A stretch of DNA of 64,000 nt from contig VMTE01000013.1 of assembly GCA_013791775.1 (NCBI GenBank), forward strand, positions 104,111 to 168,110. The letters run 5' to 3'. This DNA comes from Hyphomonas sp. (GTDB lineage: Bacteria; Pseudomonadota; Alphaproteobacteria; Caulobacterales; Hyphomonadaceae). The notes beneath the pieces are model-generated. The model was not told where the DNA came from. It did no database searches and was given only the letters and a program-made list of their open reading frames with translations. Positions 5,799-64,000 of this stretch are shown here, piece by piece. Within the stretch, counting starts at the first letter, position 1; the number at the start of each line of letters is the position of its first letter. The position numbers and the translations under genes were made by a program.

Positions 5799-5878
5799 GG
5801 AACACTCCTGCAGGCAATATATCAGGCAGGACGATAGCCGGGCCGCGTTAACGAAGCGTTTGCTTTGCGCCGACCGCT

Positions 5879-7696: not shown

Positions 7697-7876
7697 GGCG
7701 GGGAGATAGCGCGGCGTCCAGCGCGGCGCTAGGGGCGCGCGGCGCCTGGCAAATTCGTGCCTCCGGCGAACTGGTCACCAAATTGCAGGCTTTTTGCGGG
7801 AAATGATGCGCAGCGCCGGGGCGGAACCGTCCAAACCGGTCGCATGTCTCTGTTCTGCCCCTTTGAGGACCAGTCC

Positions 7877-8911: not shown

Positions 8912-8919
8912 AATCGCCC

Positions 8920-11284: not shown

Positions 11285-11397
11285 TGCGGCCTTGTGGTTC
11301 GGCCGGAACGCAAGCTCGGTGTTCCGGCAATCCTTCCGGACACTAGCCGCAAGTGGTAAATTTCAGCTGGGGACGACGTGTCAAATTCAATCGAAGT

Positions 11398-13112: not shown

Positions 13113-13141
13113 CGGCGGCACCGATAGCGGCGTGCGGCGCC

Positions 13142-13176
13142 AAAGAAAAGCCCCGCCGGCTTTGGACCGGCGGGGC
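13142..13176 (-). terminator. rho-independent terminator of the thiolase gene
   Basis: A perfect 10-bp GC stem (GCCCCGCCGG / CCGGCGGGGC, arms 13150-13159 and 13167-13176) with a 7-nt loop. On the minus strand it is followed by TTTTCTTT. It sits 24 nt after the thiolase stop and separates it from the rsmC-like gene. Confidence 0.9.
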
Positions 13177-13199
13177 GCTTCATTGTTTGGTGGGCCGGA

Positions 13200-14450: not shown

Positions 14451-14512
14451 GATGGATCTCCCTTGTGTGATCTTGTTTGTCAGGCCCTTGGTCGTCGGGC
14501 GCTTGGTGGCAT

Positions 14513-14533
14513 CGCTTTACGCGAACGTAAGCG
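14513..14533. promoter_or_regulatory. inverted repeat upstream of the thiolase gene (possible LiuR/MerR-type operator)
   Basis: The core TTACG-CGAA-CGTAA (14517-14530) is a perfect 5-bp inverted repeat flanked by CGCT and GCG. It resembles the TTTACG...CGTAAA boxes bound by MerR-family LiuR regulators of acyl-CoA and branched-chain catabolism genes. It lies between the divergent thiolase and protease genes, 67 nt from the thiolase start. Assignment is by motif memory only. Confidence 0.4.
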
Positions 14534-14627
14534 TAAGCGAAAGCCGTGACGTTGGGGGAAGGCGGGTCCCACTTTTGCTGTCCGGCCGGGCGATTCCGTG
14601 GCATGGTCTCTCACGGGAGAAACGCAC

Positions 14628-15596
14628 ATGGCGCAAAGCCGTGGTCCGATATGGCAGCTGGCGGCCCTCGCGGTCGGGCATGCTCTTGTGGCAAATGCGG
14701 CGGGCGCGACCGAGCGCGCGGTGATCCCGTTCGAGATGAACCGGTTCGATCACATGGTGGTTGAACTTCGGCTCAACGAGCTGACATCGACGACCGGCGT
14801 GGTCGATACCGCCGCCACCTTCGCCATGGTGGACAGCACGGCCGCCCTGCGCAGCGGCGTGGCGCCGCCGGGCGCGGCGGCCCGCACCGTGAATATCCTC
14901 GGCGTGAACGGCACGCAGGATTATCCGGTCGTCCGATTGAATACCGTCGAGGCCGGGAACCTGCGGATTCATGCCGTCGATGCCGCCTTTAACGATGCCA
15001 TCGGTGTGCCGGGATCGGCTGCGAATGTGTTGCCGGCCTCTGCCTTTCCCGGCGATGTGCTCGAGTTCGATTTCGAAGCCGGAACCATCTCTGCCTACGA
15101 TGGCAGACCCGACATCGCACGCTCGCGCGTGGCTGACTCGCTGGCCTATACGGTCGAGGGTGGTCTGATCTTCATCGACGTACGGATCAACGGTAAGCGT
15201 GGACGCGCGCTGATCGATACCGGCTCCAGCCTGTCCTATGTGAACTCCGCCTTTGCGCGGCAGGCCTCGATGCGCCGCAACGAAGACCTGACGCACATGC
15301 TGTTCGGCGCCACCGGCGACACCGAGACGGCCTGGATCGCAACCGCCAGGAAGGTGCGTCTGGCGGATTTCTTCGTGCCTGATGCCCACCTCATGGTTTC
15401 AGATCCGGTGCTGCTCGATGAGCTTGGCCTGCTGGCAGAACCGGTCATGGTGCTCGGGCTCGACTTCCTGTCGAAGTTCCGGCTGCAGTTTGACCGGCGC
15501 AAGCAGCGCCTGATTCTCAGCCTGCCCGGCGACACGACCGGCCGCGTCGGTCTGGCGCTGTCGGCGGACGCGACCCGGCTGCCGCAGGAACGCTAG
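14628..15596 (+). CDS. exported retropepsin-like aspartic protease with two domain copies
   Basis: A 322-residue protein with a signal peptide (residues 1-27, ending ANAAGA). GGGAG lies 11 nt before ATG 14628. It contains two retropepsin-like halves. The second has the active-site form RALIDTGSSLSYVN (Asp197) and the C-terminal VMVLGLDFLSKFRL hydrophobic-hydrophobic-Gly motif. The first half has the equivalent GVVDTAATFAMVD (Asp60), where Gly of DTG is replaced by Ala. Retropepsin-like bacterial proteases normally dimerise, so an internal pair would resemble a single-chain pepsin. Periplasmic location is inferred. Substrate unknown. Confidence 0.75.
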   Translation: MAQSRGPIWQLAALAVGHALVANAAGATERAVIPFEMNRFDHMVVELRLNELTSTTGVVDTAATFAMVDSTAALRSGVAPPGAAARTVNILGVNGTQDYPVVRLNTVEAGNLRIHAVDAAFNDAIGVPGSAANVLPASAFPGDVLEFDFEAGTISAYDGRPDIARSRVADSLAYTVEGGLIFIDVRINGKRGRALIDTGSSLSYVNSAFARQASMRRNEDLTHMLFGATGDTETAWIATARKVRLADFFVPDAHLMVSDPVLLDELGLLAEPVMVLGLDFLSKFRLQFDRRKQRLILSLPGDTTGRVGLALSADATRLPQER

Positions 15597-15876
15597 CGGC
15601 GCCACGAAAAGTGGTCCCGGTTTTCATATACACACCGCAACCAACAAGGTTGTTGGATCAAAACGCTGGTTCCGAGAATCAGCGCCTTATTCTGGCGCAA
15701 TGGTCCTTGTGCCTCATCCTGAATGCGCCGGACTCCAGCGACGCATGCGGCGTCCGTGATCGGAATCGATCCACGGCGTGATCGGCGGACTTTCCGGGCG
15801 CGGATGTTCGGGCTTTGCCGGTAGCAGCCATCAGGCTGCGGCCCCAAAGGGAGGGCCAGATTATCCGACAGGCACC
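15597..15876. other. 280-nt intergenic region with small hairpins, possible dispersed-repeat remnant
   Basis: No convincing gene is present. The stretch from 15603 (ACGAAAAGTGGTCCCGGTTT) resembles the CGAAAAGTGG...CCGGTTTTC sequences scattered between genes in many alphaproteobacteria. It is followed by small inverted repeats: CCAACAA-GG-TTGTTGG (15641-15656), GCTGGTTC-CGA-GAATCAGC with one mismatch (15665-15683), and GCGCC...GGCGC (15682-15698). It separates convergent genes, so one hairpin may also help termination. Confidence 0.35.
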
Positions 15877-17364
15877 CTATCGGACAGCTGCGGAACAGAC
15901 CCGTGCGTTCCACGCTTCGATCAGGGCATGCGGCGTTCCTGTTCCGAAGACATACCGGTCGGGGCGGACGAGAACGGCGTCCGCTTGCCAGGCTTCAAGC
16001 CACCCCAGGAGACCTGCTGCAAAGCTCGCAAGTTCGGCGGACTCAAGGCTCTTTGCCGAGATCCCGGCGGCGGCGACGGATGAAGACTTGCTGATCAGCC
16101 ACGGCCCGGCGCCCAGAACATCGTCGAGGCGTTGTGCGCCGTCTTCGGATCGGATTTGCGGGAAGTAATCACCGGCGCCGGCACTGCCCTCGAGGATGAG
16201 GCCGGACGAGATGTTGGGGTAGGCGAGCCGTCCGTCAGGTGACTGGCCGGCGGCGCGTGCGGCCAGCATTTGCCGGTCCCGCGCCGCCGCAGCTGCCGGA
16301 TCGGTGATGCAGACGGTCTGTCCCATCATCATCGCCATCTGGATCGTGGCCCGCGTATTGGGTTCGCGTTCCGGCTGATAGGAATCGAGGATCGCGTCGG
16401 ACGCCTTCCCCTTTGCAATCATTCCGAGTTTCCAGCCGAGATTTGCAGCGTCTCGGGCGCCGGCGCAGAGGCCCTGGCCCGCAAACGGCGGCGTCTGGTG
16501 TGCCGCGTCGCCCGCTAGCAGAACCCGGCCCTTGCGCCAGGTTTTCGCGACGCGCGCATTGAACTGGTAGACTGCCTTGCGTTCCAGCGTGACGGCGCCC
16601 TCGACGTCCCAGGGCTCGAGGAGGCGCTCGATGAAAGCATCCGCGATGACCTGCTCCGGTGTCTCGCCCGGAAGAATCATGAATTCCCAGCGATGACGCC
16701 CTTCGCCCATCAGCACGCAGGTCGTCGGCCGTTCCGGATCGCAGATCTGGAGATTCATTTTTGGCAGACGTTCCGCATCGTGCACGATCGTGTCGATCAC
16801 CAGCCAGGGCTCGTCGAAATTGAGATCGTCCCGTTCGATGCCGGCCATGGTGCGAACCGGGCTGTGCGTCCCGTCGGCACCAACCAGGTAACGGGCATTG
16901 AGTGTGCGTGCGCCCCCGGGTGTTTCGAACGTCACGGAGATGCTGTCACCGGACTCTTCGAAGCCCTTGAATCGCCAGCCTGTGCGCAATTCGGCGCCGC
17001 TGCCGGGCAGCTTGTCGCGCAGGGCGTTTTCCAGCGAGGGCTGGTGGATCATGTTGGCGCCGGGCCAACCGCCGGGGCCGATCTGGTCCGAGCTTTCAAA
17101 CCGCAACAGGATCTGGCCGTCCGCCGTCAGGAAATCATAGCACGGCGTGGTCCGGCTGGTCGCTGCAATCGGTTCAGCTGCACCGAACGACTGAAAGATC
17201 CGCATCACTTCATGGTCGATGTGGGCGGCGCGCGGCAGGGGATAAACGTCTGGCTCCTTCTCGCAGACGATCACCGAAGCACCGCTCTGGGCGGCGATCA
17301 GGGCGAGGGCAATGCCGGTCGGTCCTCCCCCGACAACCAAGACATCACAATCCAGGCCAACCAT
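15877..17364 (-). CDS. FAD-dependent aromatic monooxygenase, MhpA-like
   Basis: A 495-residue class A flavoprotein monooxygenase. Motifs: the dinucleotide fold VLVVGGGPTGIALALIAAQ (residues 8-26), the DG motif LVGADGTHSPVR (160-171) and the GD motif VLLAGDAAHQTPPFAGQG (281-298). A long C-terminal thioredoxin-like domain ends with DAVLVRPDRYVFGTG, the arrangement seen in MhpA, PheA and resorcinol hydroxylases. It should hydroxylate a phenolic ring using NAD(P)H and O2. Being next to an extradiol dioxygenase and an FAH-type hydrolase, its product is probably a catechol. Substrate unknown. It is the last gene of the leftward operon, 3 nt after the FAH gene. Confidence 0.88.
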   Translation of the reverse strand: MVGLDCDVLVVGGGPTGIALALIAAQSGASVIVCEKEPDVYPLPRAAHIDHEVMRIFQSFGAAEPIAATSRTTPCYDFLTADGQILLRFESSDQIGPGGWPGANMIHQPSLENALRDKLPGSGAELRTGWRFKGFEESGDSISVTFETPGGARTLNARYLVGADGTHSPVRTMAGIERDDLNFDEPWLVIDTIVHDAERLPKMNLQICDPERPTTCVLMGEGRHRWEFMILPGETPEQVIADAFIERLLEPWDVEGAVTLERKAVYQFNARVAKTWRKGRVLLAGDAAHQTPPFAGQGLCAGARDAANLGWKLGMIAKGKASDAILDSYQPEREPNTRATIQMAMMMGQTVCITDPAAAAARDRQMLAARAAGQSPDGRLAYPNISSGLILEGSAGAGDYFPQIRSEDGAQRLDDVLGAGPWLISKSSSVAAAGISAKSLESAELASFAAGLLGWLEAWQADAVLVRPDRYVFGTGTPHALIEAWNARVCSAAVR

Positions 17365-50802: not shown

Positions 50803-51017
50803 GCAAGCTTAGTACGTTTGCCTCGCCCGCACGGTCTGGACCCGGGAAAGGCAGTTGAACTGTGACCCAAATGCAACGCCTTATGATGTCATGACAAAAA
50901 GCTTCACGAAAAAGCAAAACTACATGGCGGCTTTTGGACGCTGCGTCGTCTTACCCTTGAGACGGCCGGTAGGGGCGTTCGACGTTTGGGGTATCGAGGA
51001 GGAAGAGGAACCAGTTG

Positions 51018-54000
51018 ATGCCAAATGAGGCTGTACGCTTCGCGTTCAGTCTCGCTGCACTCGCGGTGATATCCGCGGGTGTTTCGGCGGCGCAGGAAAG
51101 GTACGACATCGATATCCCGGCCGTGCGTGCTGCGGAAGCGATCAAGTCTCTCTCCTTCCAGACCGGGCATTCGGTTCTCTTTCAGACAGATGATGTCAAC
51201 TCGATCAAGACAAACGCGATCAAGGGGCAGTTGACCCTTCGGGAAGCGATGGATTCGTTGTTCCGGGGGACGACTCTCACAGGCGGTCTTACGGACAGCG
51301 GGATCATAACGATCTCACTGGCCAAAGATCAAAACCAAGATGGTCTGGAGAGCGAAGTGATCAGCAAAACACCCAAGAGAGCCTTGATGGCAACCGTTTC
51401 CGCCTTTGTATTCGGCGCGGGCGGCGTCCATGCGCAGGAGACCGAGGCGGTCGATGAAACCAAGCGAGAAGCGGTCATTGTTGTCGTTGGCAGTCGGATT
51501 TCCGGCGCGTCCATCGACGGCGCCTTGCCGGTAACGGTTGTCAGCGAAGAGGAAATCGCTGCGATTGCGGCGGTATCGGGAGAAGATCTTTTCCGCTCGA
51601 TTCCGCAGTTTGGGGATGTCAGCTTCAACCAGACATCCGGACAAGTCAGCAGCAACTTTGCGCGCGGCGATGTGGCTTCAGTCGATCTCAGGAACCTCGG
51701 CGTCGGCAGCACGCTGGTCCTGATCAACGGACGCCGCGGCGTGAACTATCCCAGCAGCCAGGCGAGTTCCAACCTCGCGCCTGTCCTCACATTCAACTCG
51801 AACACCGTGCCGGTAAACGGCATCAAGCGGGTCGAGGTTCTCCGGGACGGCGCAGGCGCGATCTACGGATCCGACGCTGTGGCCGGCGTGGTCAACATGG
51901 TCCTCCAGGATGACTTTGAGGGCAACCGGGTCGACGTGCAGTATGGCGCGGCGCCGGACACGGACTTGAACGAGTGGAGCGTTAATGGGCTTTTCGGCCG
52001 CAACTTTGCCGAGGGCCGCGGAAATGTGACACTCTTTGCGAACTACACGGATCGCAGCGCATTGCCGGCGACCGATATGGAATTTAGCTCAACCGGTGAT
52101 TTGCGGCCGCTTTTCGCGGGCACCGCGTTCGACGGAAACGCATCCTTGCTGAATGACAGCACGACGATGCCGTGGGGCACATTTCAGACCGTCGGCAACG
52201 TCCGTGTACGGCAAGGCGGGACGTCCCTGACCAGCGCCGCCGGTGCCTTCCACGTTCAACCCGGAACCAATGCTGGCTGCCTTGCCAGCCTGGGCGGCGG
52301 CATCTGCATCGACGACGCTTCGCCGGCGACCGCATCCACAGGTGCGGATGCAAACCTGCGTTGGGACGCGCGTTCAAGCTATCCCATTTCGCTCAATCCA
52401 TCGCTTCAGCGGCTCAATCTCTTCACCATGGGCAAGTACGAGCTTGAGAATGGCATGGAGCTGTTCGGAGAGGGCGGCTATTACCGTGCCGAGACGGAGA
52501 GCATTCAGGATTCGATTTTCACCATTGGTTCAATCCGGATGACGATTCCGGCATCGAACTACTGGAACCCCTTCGGCCCTGTCACGTTTGCCGACGGCTC
52601 TGCGAACCCAAACAGGCTGCCCGGGATCGATGCGCCGGCCGGGGGGCTCCCGGTCACGCTGACCGGTCTGCGGTTTTCTGATCTTGGGCCGACGAATGTT
52701 CGGGTGAAAGCAGAGCAATACCGCGCCTTGGCGGGGCTTCGCGGCGATTTCGCGGACTGGAACTGGGAAACGGCGCTCCTCTACAGCGAAGCGAAGGTTG
52801 ATGATCGCCAGCTCGGCATAAACGCCACGGCGTTTCAGGAAAATCTGGCCCTTTCAACGCCGGATGCGTTCAACCCGTTCAACGGCGGCGATCCGCTCCA
52901 TCCGGGAACGGACAATACGTTCTCGTCCCAGGCGGCGGTGGACGCGATCACGTTTGACGCCAACCGGGTCAACAAGACGACCCTGTTCCAATGGGATGCA
53001 AACGTGTCCCGGCCGGATATTGTGACGCTCTGGGCGGGTGATGTGGGCGTCGCTGCCGGTGTCGAATACCGCAGGGAAACTCAGCTCGATGACCGCGATC
53101 CCAACGTCGATGGGACGTTCACCTGGTTGGACACGGTTACCGGTCTGCTGCAGGAAAGCAATCTGTTCGGGGTCAGTCCGACGCCGGACAATAGCGGATC
53201 ACGCAATGTAGCCTCGAGCTATATCGAATTTGCGGTTCCGCTGGTCTCGCCGGAAATGAACATTCCGCTCGTGCATGCGCTCGATTTGCAACTCGCTGGA
53301 CGCTATGAAGATTACAGCGATTTCGGCACCGTTGCGAAGCCGAAGGCAGCGCTGGCATGGGATGTGTTCGACGGACTGCGCTTTCGCGGCTCCTACTCGG
53401 AAGGCTTCCGGGCGCCAAACCTCGAGCAGGTCAATGCTACCCTTGTCACCCGCGGGAACAACCGCGTCGATTATGTTCGGTGCGAAGCCGACCTTCGCGC
53501 GGGCCGTATAACGTCCTTCAACAATTGCAGCGCAACCTTCGTTGCAACGGCGCGACGTTCCGGCAACCCGGATCTGGAGCCTGAAGAGTCGACCAACTGG
53601 ACGGTCGGGACAGTCATCCAGCCGCAATTCCTGCCGGATTTCCTCGGCAGCATGACCTTCACGGCAGACTACTGGTCGATTGAACAAACCGGTATTGTCG
53701 GTGTCTTCGGTGAGGGCAACGCCTTGATCGTGGACTATCTGAACCGGGTTCAGGGAACGGTGAACCCGGCTGTGACTCGCCTTGCTCCGACCGCTGACGA
53801 TATTGCCCGCTTTGCGGGCACGGGTCTCGATCCGGCCGGCATAGTCCAGTATGTGGATGATGTTTACCAGAACCTGCAGCCGCAAACGGTCGAGGGTATC
53901 GACTTCGGCTTCCAGTGGAGTCTCGAAGGCACCCGTGCAGGGGACTTCGATTTCAGCCTCAATGCATCGCGCCTCCTGACTTACTCTCGCGGCGTTTCGG

Positions 54001-54428
54001 ATGCGATTGACGACCTCTATGCAGCGCGGGATTCCGGCGTGATCAACGCGTTGACCGTGCTGCCCGAGACGGCCGATCTTATCGAGCAGAACGGCAACCC
54101 CAAATGGCGGCTTTCTTCTTCGCTCACCTGGGATCTCAATCAGTTCCGCGTCGGTGCAAGCGCAACCTATGTCGGCGGCGTTGATGACACGTCCATCCGG
54201 GATGCGAACCTGAATTTCCTGCGGGTCGATGATCACACACTGGTCAATCTCTATGCCCAGTACAGCTTTGAGGACGAGGGGATCTTCGCAAACAGCCGGA
54301 TCCGCGTGGGTGCCCGCAACCTGTTCGACAACGAACCTCCGCTGGCAGATGAAACATTCGGATATATGGGGTCGCTCTATTCCGCGACGCCGCGCTATCT
54401 CTATCTGAGCGTCCAGAAGGAATTCTGA
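51018..54428 (+). CDS. TonB-dependent transducer/receptor with STN domain
   Basis: An 1136-residue outer-membrane receptor. A first signal peptide (residues 1-26) is followed by an STN signalling domain (about 28-104: YDIDIPAVRAAEAIKSLSFQ, GQLTLREAMDSLFRGTTL). Residues 119-140 look like a second signal peptide (KRALMATVSAFVFGAG then GVHAQ), after which come the plug (SRISGASIDGALPVTVVSEE, LVLINGRRGVNYP, RVEVLRDGAGAIYGSDAVAG, VVNMVL) and a large barrel ending YLYLSVQKEF. The STN domain should signal ligand binding to the FecR protein upstream. GAAGAGGAA lies before ATG 51018. Ligand probably a peptide-like compound, from downstream hydrolases. Confidence 0.93.
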   Translation: MPNEAVRFAFSLAALAVISAGVSAAQERYDIDIPAVRAAEAIKSLSFQTGHSVLFQTDDVNSIKTNAIKGQLTLREAMDSLFRGTTLTGGLTDSGIITISLAKDQNQDGLESEVISKTPKRALMATVSAFVFGAGGVHAQETEAVDETKREAVIVVVGSRISGASIDGALPVTVVSEEEIAAIAAVSGEDLFRSIPQFGDVSFNQTSGQVSSNFARGDVASVDLRNLGVGSTLVLINGRRGVNYPSSQASSNLAPVLTFNSNTVPVNGIKRVEVLRDGAGAIYGSDAVAGVVNMVLQDDFEGNRVDVQYGAAPDTDLNEWSVNGLFGRNFAEGRGNVTLFANYTDRSALPATDMEFSSTGDLRPLFAGTAFDGNASLLNDSTTMPWGTFQTVGNVRVRQGGTSLTSAAGAFHVQPGTNAGCLASLGGGICIDDASPATASTGADANLRWDARSSYPISLNPSLQRLNLFTMGKYELENGMELFGEGGYYRAETESIQDSIFTIGSIRMTIPASNYWNPFGPVTFADGSANPNRLPGIDAPAGGLPVTLTGLRFSDLGPTNVRVKAEQYRALAGLRGDFADWNWETALLYSEAKVDDRQLGINATAFQENLALSTPDAFNPFNGGDPLHPGTDNTFSSQAAVDAITFDANRVNKTTLFQWDANVSRPDIVTLWAGDVGVAAGVEYRRETQLDDRDPNVDGTFTWLDTVTGLLQESNLFGVSPTPDNSGSRNVASSYIEFAVPLVSPEMNIPLVHALDLQLAGRYEDYSDFGTVAKPKAALAWDVFDGLRFRGSYSEGFRAPNLEQVNATLVTRGNNRVDYVRCEADLRAGRITSFNNCSATFVATARRSGNPDLEPEESTNWTVGTVIQPQFLPDFLGSMTFTADYWSIEQTGIVGVFGEGNALIVDYLNRVQGTVNPAVTRLAPTADDIARFAGTGLDPAGIVQYVDDVYQNLQPQTVEGIDFGFQWSLEGTRAGDFDFSLNASRLLTYSRGVSDAIDDLYAARDSGVINALTVLPETADLIEQNGNPKWRLSSSLTWDLNQFRVGASATYVGGVDDTSIRDANLNFLRVDDHTLVNLYAQYSFEDEGIFANSRIRVGARNLFDNEPPLADETFGYMGSLYSATPRYLYLSVQKEF

Positions 54429-54512: not shown

Positions 54513-55853
54513 ATGTTTATGCGCGCCTGCCTGTTGGGTGTGTCTATGGTGATTGGCTGCGGGCTTCCCGCCACAGCGGCACCTGAAGACCCCTATCCTT
54601 CGACCTACGCCGCCAAACCGGCTCCGCCGACGGCGATTGTCGGCGCATCGGTTCTCACGGCCGAAGGCCCCGTCCTGGAGAATACAACCCTCCTGTTCAG
54701 CGATGGCAAGGTGATCGAAATCGGGCAAGGGATCGAGCTGCCGCCGGAGACTGTGGTGATCGATGGGGCCGGCAAATGGGTGACGCCGGGCATCATCGAT
54801 ATTCATTCACATCTCGGTGTCTTCTCCTCGCCCGGCGTGCCGTCCATGCGCAACGGTAACGAGAAGACCGGCAAGAACACGGCAGAGGTCTGGGCCGAAC
54901 ATTCGATCTGGCCTCAGGATCCCGGCTTCGAGATGGCGCGGCGCGGAGGTGTCACGACCCTGGCGATCCTGCCAGGCTCTGCCAATCTGATCGGTGGTCG
55001 CACGGTCACGGTCAAGAACGTGTCGTCCGTGAGCGTACAAGGCATGAAGTTCCCCGGCGCGCCTTACGGCGCTAAGATGGCCTGCGGCGAAAATCCGATC
55101 GTCTATGCCGCCCGCGGCAACGATCCGTTCACGCGCATGGGAAACATGGCGGGGTTTCGTACTGCGTTCATCGAGGCGCAAGGCTACCTGGAGAAGAAGA
55201 AAAAGGGTGAAACCCAGAAGCAGGACCTTCGGCTCGAAACGATTGCCGGAATCCTGTCTGGGGAAATCACGACGCACATCCACTGTTACCGCGCAGATGA
55301 AATGATGCAGATGATCGACCTTTCAAAAGAGTTCGGCTTCAAGATCGGTGCTTTCCATCATGCGTCCGAGGCCTACAAGATCGCTGACGTTCTGGCTGCC
55401 GAGGGCATCGCCGTCGCAACCTGGGCTGACCGATGGGGCTTCAAGCTCGAAGCCTATGACGGCGTTCCCCTGAACGTCGCCGCACTGGAGTGGGCCGGGG
55501 TGCACACGATGCTGCATTCCGATAGCGCAGTGCTGGTGCAGCGGTTAAACCTTGAAGCCGCCATGGCGATGGCATCGGCCGACCGGGCCGGCGGACAGAT
55601 CAGCCGCGAGGAAGCCATCCGCTGGATCACGTTAAACCCTGCAAAAACGCTCGGAATCGCCGACAGGACCGGCAGTCTCGCGCCCGGCAAGATGGCGGAC
55701 CTGGTCCTCTGGTCAACTGATCCGTTCAGTGTCTATGCCGTCGCCGAGAAAGTCTTCATTGACGGGGTAAAGGTTGTGGACCGGGACGATCCGCAGCGTG
55801 ATCCGGATTCCGATTTCCTGCTTGGTCAACCCGTCATGGGAGCCGGACAATGA
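54513..55853 (+). CDS. exported amidohydrolase, catalytically complete partner
   Basis: A 446-residue periplasmic amidohydrolase-superfamily protein with a signal peptide (residues 1-22, ending PATAA). The metal-binding set is intact: His98/His100 in GIIDIHSHLGV, later TTHIHCYRADE and GAFHHASEAY, and Asp in MLHSDSAVL. The fold ends in the usual small beta-domain (LAPGKMADLVLWSTDPF). It resembles imidazolonepropionase/prolidase-like enzymes that cleave amide bonds of dipeptides or cyclic amides. Its last 4 nt overlap the next gene (ATGA), which encodes a paralogue without metal ligands. Confidence 0.88.
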   Translation: MFMRACLLGVSMVIGCGLPATAAPEDPYPSTYAAKPAPPTAIVGASVLTAEGPVLENTTLLFSDGKVIEIGQGIELPPETVVIDGAGKWVTPGIIDIHSHLGVFSSPGVPSMRNGNEKTGKNTAEVWAEHSIWPQDPGFEMARRGGVTTLAILPGSANLIGGRTVTVKNVSSVSVQGMKFPGAPYGAKMACGENPIVYAARGNDPFTRMGNMAGFRTAFIEAQGYLEKKKKGETQKQDLRLETIAGILSGEITTHIHCYRADEMMQMIDLSKEFGFKIGAFHHASEAYKIADVLAAEGIAVATWADRWGFKLEAYDGVPLNVAALEWAGVHTMLHSDSAVLVQRLNLEAAMAMASADRAGGQISREEAIRWITLNPAKTLGIADRTGSLAPGKMADLVLWSTDPFSVYAVAEKVFIDGVKVVDRDDPQRDPDSDFLLGQPVMGAGQ

Positions 55854-57118
55854 GAGCCAGATTCTTGTTTCTCGCCTTGGGTATGGCGCTCCATGCGGCA
55901 TCCGTCGAAGCAGATCCCGTCGCGCTCCGAGGGGCCCGGATCCTGACGGCGGACAGCGCCGGAACCATCGAGCAGGGCACAATCCTGATCGACAGGGGCA
56001 AGATTGTTGCGGTTGGCGCCGAGGTTCGAATTCCTGCCGGCACTGTTGAAGTGGACCTTGCAGGCAAGACGGTGACGCCGGGCTTCATCGCGACTGATTC
56101 CGTCATCGGAATGGTCGAAATCTCCGGTGGCTCGGACGCCGACGAAACATCCAGTGCGACCATCCAGATCGGCGCTGGCTATGATGTGCAGTATGCGATC
56201 AATCCCCTGTCGACGACCATTCCGATTGCCCGCAAGGGCGGTGTGACCCGGGCAATCGTGATGCCGAATGCGGGGCCGGACAATGCGACATTCGCCGGTC
56301 AGGCCGCCATTCTGAGTCTGCGGGAAGCGACCGAGGCAGAGGTCCGGGCCAAGGTTGGCATCGTATGGGATATGCGTACCCGCGCCTATGGACGCGGCGC
56401 TACCTTTGTACAGTTCCGGTCGGATCTGGCAGATGTGCGCCGATTTTCGCGCAATGCCGGTGTGTTTGTGAAAGGTGAGCTCTTGTCACGGGAATGGTCC
56501 CGGGCTGATCTTGAAGCGCTGATCCCGATCATCAAGGGTGACAAGCCCCTGGCTGTGAGAGTGGACCGGGCGTCGGATATCCTGACCCTGATCGACATCG
56601 CCTCAGAAGAAAAGATCAGGCTCGTTTTGATCGGCGCTGCCGAGGGCTGGGTCGTTGCCGACAGGATTGCGCGGGCAGGTGTACCTGTCGCCATCGATCC
56701 GAGCGACAATCTGCCCGGCGATTTCGACGAGATCGGCGCGACGTTTGACAACGCAGCCAGGCTTCATGCGGCCGGAGTTCAGCTGATTATTCGCGGCGGC
56801 GCGTCCGCACATGATGCAGGCAAGGTTCGCCTCTATGCCGGGATGGCAATCGCCCGGGGTGTTCCGGCCGAAGTAGCGCTGAAAGCCGTCACCGTCACGC
56901 CGGCAAGGATTTGGGGTGCGAAGGATTTCGGGGCGATTGCGCCCGGGCAGAACGCGGACATTGCGGTCTGGTCGGGTGATCCGTTCGAGCCCATGACCGA
57001 GTTGACGGCGCTCTACATTGGCGGCGAACTTCAATCCCTGTTCTCAAGACAGGATGCGCTGGAAGAGCGCTACATTCCGGCCGCCCGCGTCTCCGCATCA
57101 AGAACAAATCCCGACTAG
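55850..57118 (+). CDS. amidohydrolase-like protein lacking the metal-binding residues
   Basis: A 422-residue exported paralogue of the preceding enzyme (signal peptide 1-21). It keeps the frame of the fold (KTVTPGFIATDSV, GGVTRAIVMPNAGP, AIAPGQNADIAVWSGDPFEP), but the HxH of strand 1 is replaced by ATDS (residues 81-84), the later His by VRVDRASD and LIGAAEGW, and the Asp motif HSD by GGA. With all ligands gone it is probably a non-catalytic partner or a regulatory/structural subunit of a heterodimer. The gene is intact and translationally coupled, so it is under selection. Confidence 0.85.
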   Translation: MRARFLFLALGMALHAASVEADPVALRGARILTADSAGTIEQGTILIDRGKIVAVGAEVRIPAGTVEVDLAGKTVTPGFIATDSVIGMVEISGGSDADETSSATIQIGAGYDVQYAINPLSTTIPIARKGGVTRAIVMPNAGPDNATFAGQAAILSLREATEAEVRAKVGIVWDMRTRAYGRGATFVQFRSDLADVRRFSRNAGVFVKGELLSREWSRADLEALIPIIKGDKPLAVRVDRASDILTLIDIASEEKIRLVLIGAAEGWVVADRIARAGVPVAIDPSDNLPGDFDEIGATFDNAARLHAAGVQLIIRGGASAHDAGKVRLYAGMAIARGVPAEVALKAVTVTPARIWGAKDFGAIAPGQNADIAVWSGDPFEPMTELTALYIGGELQSLFSRQDALEERYIPAARVSASRTNPD

Positions 57119-57130
57119 GAGAGACCAGGC

Positions 57131-58888
57131 ATGTTCAAGGCTATCGTATCGGGCGTCACCGGAATTGCGTTGCTGTGCTTGTCCAGCGCAGTCGCCGCGC
57201 CAGCGAGCAAGACCGGAGGCGCGACCCTCATCCGGAACGTCGTGATATTTGACGCGACAGGTCAGAAGCCCTTCAAGGCCGATGTCGAGATCCGGGACGG
57301 ACGCTTCTCCGCGATTGGCAAGAAGCTGCCGAAGAAGCGGGGTACAAAGGTCATCGAGGGAAAGGGCCTCAGCCTGCTGCCGGGCTTGACCGACGTGCAC
57401 GTGCATTGGACAGGAATGGGAGGCATCAGCCGCGCGGAAACCGCCACGCAGATGTTGGAGAGCGGCGTTACAACGTCCACGGATTTCCACTCTGCGCCGG
57501 AATCCTTCGGTCCGAAGCGTGTTTGGCACGAACAGCTGATATCACCCCACGTAGTCTTTACGGCGAGAACCGCGACTCCCGGCGGCCATGGTGCGGACTG
57601 GGGCGACGAGAACATGACGCGCCTGGCGACAACGCCGCGAGAAGGCAAGGCGATCGTGAACGCGGTGGCTGAGTACCAGCCGCAGGTCATCAAGGTATTC
57701 GCCGATGGGTGGCGCTATGGGAGCGGCATCAACAACGCCAGCATCAACATCGATGCGCTGGCGGCCATCGTTCAGGAGGCAAAAGCCCTGGGACTTCCGG
57801 TGGTCACCCATACGGTGACGGTAGATGGCGCCAAGACCGCTGCCGAAGCGGGGGTTACGGCAATCGTCCACGCTGTTCAGGATCGCAATCTCGATGAGGA
57901 CCTGATCACTACGATGCTGGAGAACGGCGTGTATTATGCGCCGACATTAGCTGTGTACGAGCCGCGCCCGGACAAGACCGGTGACAGTTCGGAGGCGCAG
58001 ATGCAGCTCGTGACGCGGCGCCAGGAGGCCTCCCGCTACAACCTTCAGCGCATCGCAGCCGCCGGCATTCCCATCGCCGTGGGAACCGACTCGGGAATCG
58101 GCGCAACACCGTTTGGCGAGTCTACTCTGCGTGAACTGGAACTGCTCGTCGATTTCGGCTTGTCCCCAGACCAGGCCCTGACGGCCGGCACGGCCAACAG
58201 CGCCAGGCTGCTTGGCCTGGGAGACGACCGGGGGACGATTGAGGTCGGAAAGCGGGCGGACTTCGTCCTTGTGCGCGGCGAGCCCTGGAACAAGGTTTCC
58301 GACTTTCGCAACATCGACGCAGTCTTTGTCGATGGCGAGCAGGTGGTCAAAGGCGGCACGCTGATCCGCGCCCAGAATTCTGACGTTCCGGCAGCCGTCG
58401 AGGCGACCCCTGTCATCGACGATTTCGAGCGGACAGAGGGCTTGACCGCAGGCGGCGCCGCGAGACTGGCAGACGTTGATAGCGGCTTTCCGCGCAGCGT
58501 CCTGATTGCACAGACGGTTGTGCGCGACGTGGGCGGTATGGCGCTGCAACTGTCGGCCGACCTGTCAGACAAGGAGGCCCCAAAGGCGTTCATCGTCCTC
58601 CCTCTTTCGCCGGGTAGTGTCGTGCCTTCGGATGCAACCCGGTTCAAGGGTGTGCGGTTCGATGCCCGCGGTGATGGCGGCGCCTACAAAGTGGAACTCG
58701 TCTCCAAAACTGGAGCGGCATCTGACGAGTTTGTTGCCGGTTCAGCATGGCAAACTCTGGACGTGCCATTCAGCGCGGTCGAAGGCGAGGAATTCTCACC
58801 TGAGGCTCTCTATTCCGTCAAACTGGGTGCCAGCCGCGCCGGCGGAGAAATCTTCTGGCTCGAGATCGACAATGTCGAGTTCTACTGA
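57131..58888 (+). CDS. exported amidohydrolase with C-terminal CIA30-like domain
   Basis: A 585-residue protein: signal peptide (1-23), amidohydrolase domain (about 30-425) with intact His90/His92 (LTDVHVHWTG), a candidate metal-bridging Lys in QVIKVFADGW, His in PVVTHTVT and AIVHAVQDR, and Asp in AVGTDSGIG. The C-terminal 150 residues (FKGVRFDARGDGGAYKVEL, AWQTLDVPFSAVEG, WLEIDNVEFY) form a CIA30-like beta-sandwich, similar to carbohydrate-binding folds. It starts 12 nt after the pseudo-amidohydrolase, in one operon. Likely cleaves a dipeptide or related amide in the periplasm. Confidence 0.88.
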   Translation: MFKAIVSGVTGIALLCLSSAVAAPASKTGGATLIRNVVIFDATGQKPFKADVEIRDGRFSAIGKKLPKKRGTKVIEGKGLSLLPGLTDVHVHWTGMGGISRAETATQMLESGVTTSTDFHSAPESFGPKRVWHEQLISPHVVFTARTATPGGHGADWGDENMTRLATTPREGKAIVNAVAEYQPQVIKVFADGWRYGSGINNASINIDALAAIVQEAKALGLPVVTHTVTVDGAKTAAEAGVTAIVHAVQDRNLDEDLITTMLENGVYYAPTLAVYEPRPDKTGDSSEAQMQLVTRRQEASRYNLQRIAAAGIPIAVGTDSGIGATPFGESTLRELELLVDFGLSPDQALTAGTANSARLLGLGDDRGTIEVGKRADFVLVRGEPWNKVSDFRNIDAVFVDGEQVVKGGTLIRAQNSDVPAAVEATPVIDDFERTEGLTAGGAARLADVDSGFPRSVLIAQTVVRDVGGMALQLSADLSDKEAPKAFIVLPLSPGSVVPSDATRFKGVRFDARGDGGAYKVELVSKTGAASDEFVAGSAWQTLDVPFSAVEGEEFSPEALYSVKLGASRAGGEIFWLEIDNVEFY

Positions 58889-58969
58889 GGTCTGATCCAT
58901 CGAACCATAACCATCCGGGTCCGGATCGGTATGGGTTGCAGCTACAGCACAAATGAGCCCGGAGGAAGC

Positions 58970-60361
58970 ATGTTCACTCTAGACGAGGCGTTCGCGCCAG
59001 TCGCGAACTTCGTCAACAGCTTGGTTTTCTTCTCGGTGAAAGTCGGCAATGTCGAGGTTCCCCTCGTCGTTCTCTGGCTCGGCTGCGGATCAATCGCGAT
59101 CACGCTCTTCCTGCGTTTTCTCAATCTCAGGGGGTTCGCCCACGCCTGGAAAATTCTCATCAAAGGCGCGCCGACCGATCACAATACGAAAGGCGAGATA
59201 TCTCACTTCGAAGCGCTATCGGCCGCGCTGTCCGGAACGATAGGTCTTGGCAACATCGCAAGCGTTCCGATCGCGATCGTACTCGGCGGGCCGGGCGCCA
59301 TCTTCTGGATGCTCGTCGCCGGATTCTTTGCTATGTCGACCAAGTTTGCCGAATGTGCGCTGGCCGTGAAGTATCGGAAAATCGGTGTGGACGGCCGGGT
59401 GTCCGGTGGTCCGATGTACTATATCGAAGAAGCGTTCTCTCGTTTGAAACTGCCGAAGACCGGCAAGGTTGTCGCCGCAATCTATGCGCTGATGGCGGTC
59501 GGTGCCTCGGTCAGTATATTCCAGATAAACCAGTCCTATGCGCAGTTCGAGCGAGTTACCTCGGTTAAGGCGCCACTCATATTCGGCATCGTGATAGCGG
59601 CGCTCGTCGCCGTCATCGTACTTGGCGGCATTCGTTCCATCGCCCGGGTCACATCGCGGCTTGTGCCAGCCATGTGCGTGATCTATCTGAGCGCCGGATT
59701 CGTGATCCTTGCCGTCAACTACGCTGTCATCCCTTCGGTGTTTCAGGAGATTTTCGCAGGCGCCTTCGGCCTTGATGCCGCTGCAGGAGGCGCCGTCGGC
59801 GCGATGATCAACGGCCTCAAACGCGCCACTTATTCCAGCGAAGCAGGGACGGGGTCATCTGCCATTGCTCATTCGGCCGTCCGCACCAACAATCCGCTGA
59901 CGGAAGGCTACGTCGCGCTTGTCGAGCCGTTCATCGACACCATCGTGGTCTGCCTCACCACCGGCCTGATCGTGCTCGTCACGGGCGCATGGCTGGCTGA
60001 CGTGCCCATGGGGATCGGCATGACATCGCTCGCCTTCGAGTCGGTATTTCCCTGGTTTTCCTATATTCTCTGCGTCTCGGTGATCTTGTTCGCCTTCTCG
60101 ACGGCCGTGAGCTGGGCCTATTACGGCTCAAAGGCCGTCGGCTATCTTTCGGGAAACAACCCGCGCGTCGATGTCGTCTACAAACTCGCTCTTTGCGCCG
60201 TCCTCTCACTTGGGGCGACCGTCGAACTTGCACATATTGTGGACTTCATTGACGCGATGCTTTTCGGCATGGCTATCCCGAACCTCCTCGCCGTGTTCAT
60301 GCTGCTGCCGGAACTCAAACGGGACATCACACGATACGAGCAGACCCTGAAGGCCGGCTAG
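58970..60361 (+). CDS. alanine/glycine:cation symporter (AGCS) family
   Basis: A 463-residue inner-membrane symporter with about eleven helices. ATG 58970 follows GGAGGAA closely. AGCS features: HFEALSAALSGTIGLGNIA, GPGAIFWMLVAGFFAMSTKF, AECALAVKYR, VSGGPMYYIEEAF, and the substrate/cation motif ATYSSEAGTGSSAIAHSA followed by NNPLTEGYVALVEP. It imports alanine or glycine with Na+ or H+. It closes the FecI/FecR/receptor/amidohydrolase locus, consistent with recovery of amino acids freed in the periplasm. It converges on the outer-membrane protein gene, 71 nt away, with no clear terminator. Confidence 0.93.
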   Translation: MFTLDEAFAPVANFVNSLVFFSVKVGNVEVPLVVLWLGCGSIAITLFLRFLNLRGFAHAWKILIKGAPTDHNTKGEISHFEALSAALSGTIGLGNIASVPIAIVLGGPGAIFWMLVAGFFAMSTKFAECALAVKYRKIGVDGRVSGGPMYYIEEAFSRLKLPKTGKVVAAIYALMAVGASVSIFQINQSYAQFERVTSVKAPLIFGIVIAALVAVIVLGGIRSIARVTSRLVPAMCVIYLSAGFVILAVNYAVIPSVFQEIFAGAFGLDAAAGGAVGAMINGLKRATYSSEAGTGSSAIAHSAVRTNNPLTEGYVALVEPFIDTIVVCLTTGLIVLVTGAWLADVPMGIGMTSLAFESVFPWFSYILCVSVILFAFSTAVSWAYYGSKAVGYLSGNNPRVDVVYKLALCAVLSLGATVELAHIVDFIDAMLFGMAIPNLLAVFMLLPELKRDITRYEQTLKAG

Positions 60362-60432: not shown

Positions 60433-63000
60433 CTAGAAGTCCTTGCGAAGTCCGAGGGAGAAGAAGTAGCCGCGCTCTTCGTTCGTGCCAAACGCGGTCT
60501 GGGAATCCGAGAAGACGCCGCCGATTTCGAGTTCGAACTGCGCCATGCGGATCGGCGTCCAGGTGGCCGCAACCGATCCGCGTCCGGACGTCCTGGAGGA
60601 CGTGCCATCGGCGGATTGGCGGTCGTCAATCCGGATCTTCGGACTAATCCGAACCGAGCGTGTAACCGGATAGCGGCCGTTGAACTGGTACGACATCTGG
60701 GTAGACGCATCGAGTTCCGAATACCTCACGCCGAGGATGGCAATCGCGCCGGGCTTGAACAGGTCCGAGCCAACAACCTGCGCAGAGTAATAGAATTCTG
60801 TCCCGGTAGCGGGCTGTGCATCTACACCGCCCGACGCCTTGGTGCCCGATACGTTGGATGCCACGACATCCAGATTCAGCTGAAGATGCGATGTCAGGGG
60901 CCGGGCATAGCTTATGAAGGCCGATCTTGAATAGGCCGTCCTGTCTTCCGCCAGCTGATAGATCTCGTCTTCCGTGTACGTGCCGAGCAGGTCGTTCGGA
61001 TCGGTGACTGTCTGGCCGAAAATCGCGTTCTGCGTCGTCAGGAACGGAGAGCGGCGATAGTCGAGCGCGACAGTCACGCTCGATTCGTCGGCAAACTTCT
61101 GGGTTCCATTGAGCAGCACGAGGTTTGTCTGGCCGTAGCTGACATCGTAGTCGACAACGCCATAGGCCGTCTGATTGCCACGGAAATACCGGAACTCGAA
61201 GCCTGCGGCTTCGCGGTCGGTCAGGTCGCCGTAAGTTTGGGTGAGATAATACACGGTCGCATCCAGCGTGTCGGGAACAACCGCGATATCTGCGCTAGTG
61301 CCGTAGAATACGCGATCCGAATTGACCTCGATGTCGCGTGAGGACTGGACCGGGTAACCTGCAACCGCGTTGAGTTTCAGGCGATCCGAAATCTGCGCAC
61401 CGCCGTAGGCGCCGTCGAAGCGTCCAAAGACACCACCCGAGTTACGTGTCTGGCGGCCGAGCCGGAGCGACGAGTTCCATTGCCGGTCGGAGAGGTCCAG
61501 ATAGAGCGAACTGATCGAGGTCTCGTCGCGCGGGTCGGTTGTGTTCAGGTCATCACGGTAGAGACCCGAGAACCGGAGCAGAGCTTCGTTGCGATCGGTT
61601 CCGAGCGACAGGTTCAGGTCGGCCCCGTAGAGAATTTCGTTCAGGTTGACCTGGTTCGTTTCCACCGGGTCCGGATTGACCTCCGGTCCGCCGACGACAG
61701 GTGTGTCCTGAAACCTGAAACCGGACTCGTCGCGCTGATAGAGAACCGAAAGGCTGCCCGTCGCCTCGGCGCGGATCTTGGTGGCTTCCTCACGAATGGG
61801 TTCGCCGTTCTCGGCGAAACCCGTGGGCGGGGCTTCTTCTCCGGTCACCAACACGGCGAGCCGTTGGCGGACGCGCCCGGCTGCCGGATCGTTGGGATAG
61901 TCTCGCAGAAACGCCTCATACTCAGCCTTGGCATGGGCGAGCTGACCAGCTTTCTCGCGTGCGAGCCCGAGCAGTTCCTGTGCAGCCGGCGAGGCTGCGC
62001 TTTTTGGCATCGCGATCACAGCGCTCGTGATGCGGACGGTGTCAGCGAAAGCGCCTTCCGCGAACTTGACCCGCGCCTCTTGGAGCAGAGCTTCCGCTTC
62101 GGGATTGATCGCCAGCTCGGGCGCGGCGCTGTCCCCGCCGCCTGCTTGCGCGCCGCGGGCGGCAGTCCAGGCCCGGTAGACGAAGTCCCGTTCCTTGCGG
62201 TCCAGTCGAACGATCCAGGCTTCCGGATAGGTCGGCAAGACATCTGCCAGGGCGGCTTCGGCGTCCGACCGGGTGGCAAACATGCCGAGCCGCAGCCTTG
62301 ACCACGTCGCGCCATTCTCTTCCGCGACATAGGCGTAGCCTACATGATCCTTGAACGCATCAATCTGCTTGATGACGGCGGGGTCGAGCTTGGAAGCGCG
62401 TGTCGATGCGAGGTTGACGGCATAGTTGCCGTTGGGGTCCACGGCGTCGGGCAGCGTATTCGTGACCGAAAGGACGGCGTCCGCGAGCGCCGAACTCGCG
62501 GACGTACCGGTCGTACCCGATTCGGAAATGCAGCCCGCACTTCCCGGATTCGATACACGGATCACGATCCGCGAGACGTTGTTGTCGGCTTGAACATCCC
62601 AGCTGACATCATGGTCGAATTGCAGGGTAAGTGTCGGGCCTGCCGGGTCCGCGACATCATACGTGATTTGCTGAATGCCAGCGATCTTGCTGGAGGGCGG
62701 GCGTCCACTTTCTGCAGCGGTACTGGCGCCGATACTCAACCGGTTGAAGTTCAGCGGCTGCACGGCAATACGCAGGTCGCGGCCACCCGTCTCCGGGAAG
62801 TGGGACTGGTACTGTACGGGAACGTTGAATTCTACCGTGACCACCGAGCAGCTGCCTTGCTCGCTGGCCTGCACCCGCGAGAGGAAGCGGTCCTGGACGA
62901 TCTGCGCAGCGGCCGGCTCAGCAAGCACGATCGCGCTGACGACGGAACCTGTGATGAGGCCGATTCGGCTGAGTTGGCGTCCAGGGGGCAGTGGTCTCAT
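60433..63000 (-). CDS. outer-membrane protein with AMIN-like, SPOR, TPR and beta-barrel regions
   Basis: An 855-residue exported protein (signal peptide to about residue 33, EPAAAQ). GGAGGAA lies just before ATG 63000. Order: an AMIN-like beta domain (about 35-165, two cysteines, FNVPVQYQSHFPETG, LTLQFDHDVSWDV), a SPOR-like peptidoglycan-binding region (about 190-275, SRLRLGMFATRSDAEAALAD), a TPR-type helical region (about 300-375, ELLGLAREKAGQLAHAKAEY), then a long barrel (about 400-855) of alternating strands ending FFSLGLRKDF. It is the last gene after a multiheme cytochrome, 22 nt apart. Inferred to hold or thread the cytochrome at the outer membrane. Confidence 0.75.
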   Translation of the reverse strand: MRPLPPGRQLSRIGLITGSVVSAIVLAEPAAAQIVQDRFLSRVQASEQGSCSVVTVEFNVPVQYQSHFPETGGRDLRIAVQPLNFNRLSIGASTAAESGRPPSSKIAGIQQITYDVADPAGPTLTLQFDHDVSWDVQADNNVSRIVIRVSNPGSAGCISESGTTGTSASSALADAVLSVTNTLPDAVDPNGNYAVNLASTRASKLDPAVIKQIDAFKDHVGYAYVAEENGATWSRLRLGMFATRSDAEAALADVLPTYPEAWIVRLDRKERDFVYRAWTAARGAQAGGGDSAAPELAINPEAEALLQEARVKFAEGAFADTVRITSAVIAMPKSAASPAAQELLGLAREKAGQLAHAKAEYEAFLRDYPNDPAAGRVRQRLAVLVTGEEAPPTGFAENGEPIREEATKIRAEATGSLSVLYQRDESGFRFQDTPVVGGPEVNPDPVETNQVNLNEILYGADLNLSLGTDRNEALLRFSGLYRDDLNTTDPRDETSISSLYLDLSDRQWNSSLRLGRQTRNSGGVFGRFDGAYGGAQISDRLKLNAVAGYPVQSSRDIEVNSDRVFYGTSADIAVVPDTLDATVYYLTQTYGDLTDREAAGFEFRYFRGNQTAYGVVDYDVSYGQTNLVLLNGTQKFADESSVTVALDYRRSPFLTTQNAIFGQTVTDPNDLLGTYTEDEIYQLAEDRTAYSRSAFISYARPLTSHLQLNLDVVASNVSGTKASGGVDAQPATGTEFYYSAQVVGSDLFKPGAIAILGVRYSELDASTQMSYQFNGRYPVTRSVRISPKIRIDDRQSADGTSSRTSGRGSVAATWTPIRMAQFELEIGGVFSDSQTAFGTNEERGYFFSLGLRKDF

Positions 63001-63022
63001 GCGTTCCTCCAAAAAATTTCCG

Positions 63023-64000
63023 TCAGTCGAAGCTGCCGCTGTTCACGCGGTGATGTGAATTTCTCGTTTCCTTGATCCGGGTCATCGTCGCGTCGGTGTA
63101 GGTGTGGCAGGCCCCCGCGCAGTCGCGCAGCTCCGACACCGTGTAGTAGGTTCGGGGCGTGTCAGTTTTCTTGTGCTCGTCGGCCTCGAAGTCATTCGCA
63201 TGACAGGCCGCGCAATCGGGTTGGTACGCGGGGTTGGGCCACGAAACCTGTTGCGCGTTGGTGCGGTGACAGTCGCTGCAATCGAGATTGCCGCGGTGAT
63301 CGCCCGGATAGCCGCCGCTGGTGTGAACAAACCGGATGGTCGTCCAGTTGTTCGTGTTGTGGCACTCGTTGCATTGCAGCGTCGTTTGAAAGTGGGTGGC
63401 GGGCTTGCCCGTGGCCGTCGATCCGTTGTGGCAGCTCGAGCACGAACCGGTCACCAGGGCGTGATCAAAACTTGCCGGGATCCAGGCCAGCGTCGAATGG
63501 CAATCGCTGCATTGCGCGTTGGTCGTGATGTGGAAAGCGGGCTTGCCCGTCGCCGCACTTCCATTGTGACATGAACTGCAGGACCCTGTGACCGCGTTGT
63601 GGTCAACGCGCACGCTCGTCCAGGAGGTTGTCAGGTGGCAATCGTCGCAGGTGGTGGTCGATGCAATGTGGGTGGGCGGTTTGCCGGTCGCGGTCGATCC
63701 GTTGTGGCAGGACGAGCACGATCCGGTCACCGACGCATGATCGAAGCGCACGTTCGACCACGACGTCGTCACATGGCAGCTGTCGCACCCGGATGATGTC
63801 GAGATATGACCGGGTGGCTTGCCGGTAGCCGACGTCCCGTTGTGGCAGGAGCTGCACGAGCCGGTCACCGCCGCGTGGTCGAAGCGCACATTGGTCCACG
63901 AGGTCGTGACATGGCAGCTTTCACACCCGGAGGATGTTGAGATATGACCGGGTGGCTTGCCGGTAGCCGACGTCCCGTTGTGGCAGGAGCTGCACGAGCC
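63023..64000 (-). CDS. multiheme cytochrome c with tandem CxxCH repeats (N-terminus beyond window)
   Basis: The C-terminal 325 residues of a multiheme cytochrome. I count 12 CxxCH motifs plus one CAGACH (C-x3-CH). Up to near 63330 the sequence repeats with a period of 46 residues: a CSSCHNG(T/S)xATGKPPxH half and a C(D/E)(S/D)CHxTTSWxxVRFDH half. Each unit thus binds two haems and holds two more histidines suited as axial ligands. After the repeats come LDCSDCHRTNAQQVSW, CAACHANDFEADEH and a final basic tail with HHRVNSGSFD. The frame stays open at 64000. Probably exported and extracellular or periplasmic, acting in electron transfer. Confidence 0.9.
   Translation of the reverse strand, partial: GSCSSCHNGTSATGKPPGHISTSSGCESCHVTTSWTNVRFDHAAVTGSCSSCHNGTSATGKPPGHISTSSGCDSCHVTTSWSNVRFDHASVTGSCSSCHNGSTATGKPPTHIASTTTCDDCHLTTSWTSVRVDHNAVTGSCSSCHNGSAATGKPAFHITTNAQCSDCHSTLAWIPASFDHALVTGSCSSCHNGSTATGKPATHFQTTLQCNECHNTNNWTTIRFVHTSGGYPGDHRGNLDCSDCHRTNAQQVSWPNPAYQPDCAACHANDFEADEHKKTDTPRTYYTVSELRDCAGACHTYTDATMTRIKETRNSHHRVNSGSFD
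63330..64000 (-). repeat. 138-nt tandem repeats in the cytochrome gene
   Basis: GTGGCAGGAGCTGCACGAGC recurs at 63842 and 63980, exactly 138 nt apart. Related but more diverged copies occupy the stretch back to about 63330, nearly five units. Copies near 64000 are almost identical, so recent expansion or gene conversion is likely and the array probably continues beyond the window. Confidence 0.9.

Follow-up and report, generated by a model that had tools for sequence, protein, structure and literature searches.

A probable PCC3-type porin–cytochrome conduit in Hyphomonas sp. and a candidate NAD(P)H-side flavoprotein partner

The window, a 64,000-nucleotide (nt) stretch of a Hyphomonas sp. genome (G000; the stretch lies on its contig C39), ends in a porin gene and the adjoining part of a multihaem cytochrome gene, a pair that the original prediction had read as a possible novel outer-membrane electron conduit. 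It was concluded with good confidence that this pair is the outer-membrane end of a porin–cytochrome conduit of the PCC3 type. As described by He et al. (2017, PMC5566968; this and the other papers cited are drawn on through the parts of their text available), PCC3 consists of a porin, an extracellular wire, a periplasmic wire (median 21 haems), and an inner-membrane protein of ~300 amino acids (aa) with five helices, SGXXG and two WX3HX13H motifs. The wires are built of repeats with 22–39 residues per haem, and in the published model the inner-membrane protein is coupled to the quinone pool. The predicted conduit was upheld, as a barrel is predicted and the neighbouring genes are kept in relatives. 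The novelty was not supported, because the cluster, once its missing genes are added, matches the published four-part PCC3, including the motifs and the low residue-per-haem ratio. Moreover, the porin and cytochrome form a real pair but only half of the system, as the upstream genes, for an inner-membrane protein and a periplasmic wire of 24 haems, are on a different contig. Tentatively, a flavoprotein found beside these genes may be a further part of the conduit.

In the window, the cytochrome frame (63026–64000, minus strand) contains 325 open codons with 12 CxxCH motifs and one CxxxCH. The predicted spacing of one haem per 23 residues was borne out, with nine haem-to-haem steps of exactly 23 residues and the last two of 31 and 22, and the repeat is a unit of 138 bp at the DNA level. 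After 2000 residue shuffles of the frame, the mean number of CxxCH was 0.17 and the maximum was 2, and the five other reading frames of the stretch held zero CxxCH and were each interrupted by stops. The window ends with contig C39, and the cytochrome gene is cut there. Contig C34 also ends in this 138-bp repeat, oriented to fit. When the last 295 bases of C34 are set against the first 295 of the window minus strand, 268 positions agree, and the longest exact overlap between the two contig ends is 19 bases; thus, the ends look like different copies of the repeat. The assembly probably broke inside one gene, and C34 would hold its 5′ part. This putative 5′ part contains 21 CxxCH, and every haem step in it is 23 residues except the first. 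If both contigs carry parts of one gene, the extracellular wire would possess at least 33 CxxCH and one CxxxCH.

To describe the porin and its neighbours, relatives were found using the porin protein alone as bait; 97 were found and 80 loci (numbered with L; L007 is a stretch of contig C34) were kept. The porin alignment comprised 59 of the 80 loci and the window (60 members), the inner-membrane protein alignment 49 loci and G000 (50 members), and the flavoprotein alignment 24 loci and G000 (25 members), with fragments and broken frames excluded by hand in each case.

The stop codon of the cytochrome gene (63023–63025) and the ATG of the porin gene are 22 nt apart, as predicted, and the two genes are probably co-transcribed; in the gene listing, an upstream TTG at 63012 is given as the porin start. 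An AlphaFold2 model of the porin based on the 60 aligned members (mean predicted local distance difference test 83.7, predicted template modelling score 0.65) agreed with the earlier call of a barrel, with 22 predicted strands counted by hand from the strand list. The SPOR-like region was confirmed at 27.5 bits, above the Pfam cut-off of 21. In the TPR region, TPR_9 scored 19.7 bits, under its cut-off of 35, and helices were predicted at residues 268–386, in keeping with the predicted TPR region. At E ≤ 0.01, TPR_9 was matched by 52 and SPOR by 38 of the 60 aligned porins, several of these matches being partial. AMIN, the third domain that had been proposed, was dropped, as the 60 members matched 18 families at this threshold and AMIN was not one of them. 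The best named relative in the porin scan was Hyphomonas sp. RI_45 (78%). Locus L018 belongs to Marinicaulis flavus.

Contig C34 carries, in order, a 294-aa inner-membrane protein gene, a 24-haem cytochrome gene, and the presumed 5′ part of the extracellular cytochrome gene. The 24-haem protein (594 aa, 24 CxxCH) is of the periplasmic type and is presumably located in the periplasm; its haem steps are mostly ~16, 18, and 32 residues, which correspond to a triheme unit of ~67. The ratio of residues per haem was 24.8 in this cytochrome and 25.5 and 27.1 in the two extracellular parts. In the case of the inner-membrane protein, W94 was conserved in 48 of the 50 aligned members and the other motif positions in all 50, with H287 present in 42 of the 42 members that cover its column. 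Accordingly, the features of PCC3 found in G000 are a barrel porin beside a repeat-built cytochrome, a second wire of 24 haems, the number of residues per haem, and a 294-aa protein with the motifs. The five transmembrane helices of PCC3 correspond only loosely: the AlphaFold2 helices fit five spans by hand assignment, and the last two continue into long helices. Loops 2 and 4 of the inner-membrane protein are rich in lysine and arginine, which suggests that these loops and its large helical domain are cytoplasmic. In that case, one histidine pair would lie near each face of the membrane, and the helical domain would point towards the flavoprotein. The positions of these features are collected in Table 1.

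Table 1. Positions of the conduit features in the window (contig C39) and on contig C34 (L007)
Feature	Position	Strand	Basis or remark
3′ part of repeat-built multihaem cytochrome gene	63023..64000	-	gene order and composition; extracellular wire of PCC3
Gap between cytochrome and porin genes, 22 nt	63001..63022	-	GGAGG at 63006-63010 (by eye)
Porin gene of the PCC3 cluster, 855 aa	60433..63000	-	ATG at 63000
Porin N-terminal beta-rich domain, residues 40-150	62551..62883	-	AlphaFold2
Porin SPOR domain, residues 191-265 from ATG	62206..62430	-	profile match
Porin TPR-like helices, residues 268-386	61843..62199	-	profiles and AlphaFold2
Predicted 22-strand beta-barrel, residues 410-854	60439..61773	-	AlphaFold2
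Fe-S/FAD/NAD(P) flavoprotein, 435 aa	L007:9375-10679		contig C34, beyond maturation genes
CcmI-like (CycH-TPR), CcmH, redoxin in CcmG position, and CcmF genes	L007:10709-14923	-	contig C34; profiles
Inner-membrane protein, 294 aa	L007:15107-15988		contig C34; two WX3HX13H and SGxxG
Putative 5′ part of extracellular cytochrome gene	L007:18011-19619		contig C34; 21 CxxCH, ends in the same repeat

As the relatives were found with the porin alone, their neighbouring genes provided an independent test. At least 400 nt upstream of the porin was available in 71 of the 80 loci, and in 71 of these 71 a multihaem cytochrome frame ended no more than 658 nt from the porin match, so that the co-occurrence expected in other genomes was found within 0.7 kb throughout. 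The inner-membrane gene was detected in 50 of the 80 loci by tblastn. Distribution was determined in 61 genomes of relatives and in a wider draw of 299 genomes of the phylum, with 2 genomes common to both. The porin was patchy, occurring in 3 of 37 same-genus genomes (its own included), 4 of the 61 relatives, and 4 of the 299 genomes. Among the 61 relatives, the inner-membrane protein matched strongly in the four porin genomes, and matches of 24–25% were seen in three others. In plasmid sequences, no match to the porin and one match to the flavoprotein were found. Several loci showed other arrangements: L036 and L047 carry a 7-haem upstream cytochrome; L042 contains a third cytochrome between the two; L079 has a further cytochrome, of 47 haems, after the porin; and L077 is rearranged, with a 15-haem cytochrome before the porin and the inner-membrane gene and an 18-haem cytochrome after it.

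The two wires were found to differ in how their haem numbers vary. Haems were counted in the 49 of 80 loci in which both cytochromes were readable; the first frame was labelled periplasmic and the last extracellular after the gene order of He et al., and the motifs of the inner-membrane protein were seen in 45 of these 49 loci. The other 31 loci showed fewer than two upstream cytochrome frames or had the first frame cut by an end, and only two of them (L036 and L077) extended more than 8 kb upstream. The periplasmic cytochrome had 21 haems in 36 loci, 24 in 6, 18 in 4, 27 in 2, and 23 in 1; thus, its count was a multiple of three in 48 of 49, with L044 (23) as the exception. The extracellular cytochrome had 7 to 60 CxxCH, an odd number in 40 of the 49 loci, where L047 was entered with 7 and the count of 10 for L020 is a lower bound because its sequence contains a run of N and is read in two frames. 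Pairs were compared among the 44 of these loci shared with the porin alignment. When the porins were ≥70% identical, the periplasmic count differed in 0 of 24 pairs and the extracellular count in 13 of 24; at 50–70% identity, the counts differed in 4 of 46 and 42 of 46 pairs, respectively. Among 19 representatives with <50% identity, the coefficient of variation was 0.08 for the periplasmic and 0.42 for the extracellular count, the independence of all these counts being limited by shared descent. Periplasmic subunits of 21, 24, and 27 haems are given by Hoover et al. (2023, PMC10734462), who suggest a wire that spans the periplasm; a haem step of three is not stated in the available text of that paper.

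Beyond the maturation genes on C34 lies the gene of a flavoprotein that combines a ferredoxin-like iron–sulphur (Fe-S) part with a part for flavin adenine dinucleotide (FAD) and nicotinamide adenine dinucleotide (phosphate) (NAD(P)), the solved relatives of which are thioredoxin reductases and ferredoxin-NADP reductases. No CxxC pair was found in the G000 protein. Of the 50 loci that have the inner-membrane gene, 42 carry the flavoprotein gene as a neighbour, and among the 41 with more than 3 kb of room the figure is 39. In one of the two remaining roomy loci, L016, the stretch starts inside ccm genes; the other is L047. Moreover, the flavoprotein was present at E ≤ 1e-60 in exactly the four porin genomes among the 61 relatives, and, at the threshold used for the wider draw, also in exactly the four porin genomes among the 299, with six distinct positives over both samples. 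All 25 aligned members (25 of 25) have His where the second Fe-S motif would have its second Cys; in the first motif, the second Cys is missing in 3 of 25, including G000, where it is Ala. A histidine kinase and a response regulator lie beside the G000 flavoprotein (L007:6933-9020). Their homologues (68% and 82%) were found directly after the porin in L009 (L009:12965-14993), and the kinase and regulator may therefore regulate the conduit. In addition, a Sel1 and ankyrin-repeat protein of 628–677 aa is encoded between the flavoprotein and the inner-membrane gene in L037 (L037:3032-4915) and L044 (L044:3273-5303), and genes of similar appearance occur in other loci.

A PCC3-like gene row was found on plasmid pEMTOL02 of Emticicia oligotrophica (Bacteroidota; L117 = NC_018749.1:73260-92447, positions 4938-16736). 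It opens with CcsA/ResB, followed by the inner-membrane protein (E 1e-26 by profile) and the flavoprotein (46% identical); a 23-haem and then a 40-haem cytochrome come next, and a 538-aa protein closes the row. In this order, the flavoprotein has the inner-membrane protein on one side and the wires on the other. The 538-aa protein showed no match to the porin family (hhalign probability 0.3%), and our guess is that it is an outer-membrane protein. As for the maturation genes on C34, 10 of the 50 loci that have the inner-membrane gene also contain a ccmF homologue. Elsewhere in G000, ccmF is matched on C51 and C32 (54% and 39% identical, covering different parts of the query), and the copy at the conduit thus looks additional.

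In the chain proposed here, the Fe-S/FAD/NAD(P) flavoprotein, anchored to the membrane from the cytoplasmic side, would exchange electrons with an inner-membrane protein holding two haems b, and the 24-haem wire of triheme units would move electrons across the periplasm. The SPOR/TPR/barrel protein would hold and insulate the junction at the peptidoglycan and outer membrane, and the second wire, with its 23-residue haem steps, would take electrons outside. Read in this way, the chain would be NAD(P)H, FAD, Fe-S, haem b, haem b, periplasmic wire, porin, and outer wire. Export would be favoured, since flow from NAD(P)H to an oxidised acceptor is downhill. The complex, the haem b binding, the topology, the NAD(P)H link, and the electron flow in this chain are putative, being read from the sequences. 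More broadly, PCC3 may be a larger NAD(P)H-linked cable instead of a four-part quinone-linked iron oxidase, in which the flavoprotein with its invariant His would feed the two-haem-b protein and the two wires, with haem-attachment genes beside them in some lineages. The flavoprotein, inner-membrane protein, and wires would be the core common to the Bacteroidota plasmid, and the outer-membrane protein would be replaceable. The periplasmic wire would be a ruler of 6 to 9 triheme units matching the width of the periplasm, the outside wire would grow freely by diheme units, and the SPOR and TPR parts would anchor the junction at the cell wall. As a whole, this proposal is tentative, and we consider it possible, somewhat short of probable.

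Several observations weigh against the PCC3 assignment or the proposed cable. The assignment was made by comparing features with the published description, and the barrel matched only generic ushers and porins with low template modelling scores among the best 50 solved structures listed by Foldseek. In the case of the inner-membrane model, Foldseek returned nothing better than E = 0.8; weak matches to cytochrome b561 or ferric reductase came from single members only; and the best hit of a sequence-profile search of solved structures (E 0.0053, a receptor fused to cytochrome b562) was taken as chance. As these searches gave no solid match, the histidine motifs are the evidence for the two haems b. 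A ferric-reductase-like fold was neither supported nor excluded by the fold search, and with no solved relative from Foldseek or sequence profiles, this likeness remains the motif argument of He et al. With regard to the flavoprotein, ~4.4 kb of maturation genes separates it from the conduit in G000; of the 42 loci, 34 have it on the opposite strand and 8 on the same one; and L047 contains no flavoprotein within 10 kb upstream. Finally, only up to 3 (porin) and 5 (flavoprotein) first-look candidates per genome were scored in the 299-genome draw, and misses are thus possible there.

The strongest alternative is PCC3 as published, in which the conduit would exchange electrons with the quinone pool and take them up, with Fe(II) or Mn(II) as possible donors, and an accessory or regulatory flavoprotein would stand off the main path. 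This agrees with the model of He et al. (PMC5566968), with the presence of PCC3 in iron oxidisers (PMC10734462, PMC12442390), and with the rise of one PCC3 copy's inner-membrane gene in iron-oxidising cells of strain CL21 (PMC12442390); in the latter paper, the function of PCC3 is stated to be untested. However, Zhou et al. (2022, PMC8788666) report that both PCC3 clusters of Sideroxydans lithotrophicus ES-1 are down-regulated on Fe(II). The genome-by-genome agreement between flavoprotein and porin also argues against an accessory role, as does its higher conservation, the mean column identity being 65% for the flavoprotein, 47% for the inner-membrane protein, and 36% for the porin (with different row sets). 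Moreover, the RuBisCO large subunit was not matched in G000 and was lacking in five of the six PCC3 genomes tested, G259 alone having both RuBisCO large subunit and MtrB matches; autotrophy in G000 was rejected on the same negative match. The published reading was judged a real possibility, although not one to be held with confidence.

The text of PMC5566968, without figures and supplements, mentions no SPOR or TPR porin parts, Fe-S/FAD neighbour, maturation genes, or three-haem step, and "SPOR domain" and "peptidoglycan" did not occur in the full text of the six PCC3 papers among the matches listed. The PCC3 flavoprotein, the SPOR/TPR porin, and the Hyphomonas case are unnamed in the available parts of PMC5566968, PMC10734462, PMC8788666, PMC12442390, PMC13386937, PMC12016527, and PMC11475568.

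An electron store or redox buffer, in which long haem chains hold charge with no external partner, is unlikely. The very high haem numbers would suit it, and a capacitor role was raised by Hoover et al. (PMC10734462), but the predicted barrel is kept beside the wire in all 71 testable loci and the extracellular wire has no fixed length, neither of which storage alone would require.

If the NAD(P)H-linked cable is correct, the flavoprotein as NAD(P)H-side partner would name the electron source or sink and favour export over iron oxidation. Such a link would change the working picture of PCC3, which occurs in several bacterial classes and whose published model stops at the quinone pool. Moreover, triheme steps in the periplasm beside a free outer length would constitute a natural experiment on how wires are sized to the cell envelope. 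The other genes noted in the window, all on the plus strand, encode a TonB-dependent receptor (51015-54428), amidohydrolases (54513-55853 and 57131-58888) with a putative third amidohydrolase at 55850-57118 between them, and a sodium:alanine symporter (58931-60361).

In principle, the Hyphomonas conduit resembles MtrCAB, MtoAB, and PioAB, in which a haem wire passes through an outer-membrane barrel; unlike it, those systems possess decahaem subunits and a different barrel family. A conduit of the MtrAB/PioAB type is highly improbable, because the DmsE decahaem model (TIGR03508), although matched by the window cytochrome part at 58.6 bits and with a second score of 74.1 bits, stays far under its cut-off of 192.2, MtrB/PioB (TIGR03509) matched nothing in G000, the porin included, and the barrel has 22 predicted strands against 26 in MtrB. 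PCC4 (PMC5566968) likewise combines a porin with multihaem cytochromes; its inner-membrane protein bears the same histidine motifs, and other redox proteins belong to it as well. However, the cytochromes of PCC4 are three periplasmic ones with 4, 5, and 10 haems, none being extracellular, and identity with it was rejected because G000 has two long cytochromes instead, of 24 and, if the two contigs are joined, at least 33 CxxCH. The pEMTOL02 row differs in its last protein, which falls outside the porin family, and in having CcsA/ResB instead of ccm genes, but it shares with the Hyphomonas conduit the inner-membrane protein, the flavoprotein, and two long multihaem cytochromes.

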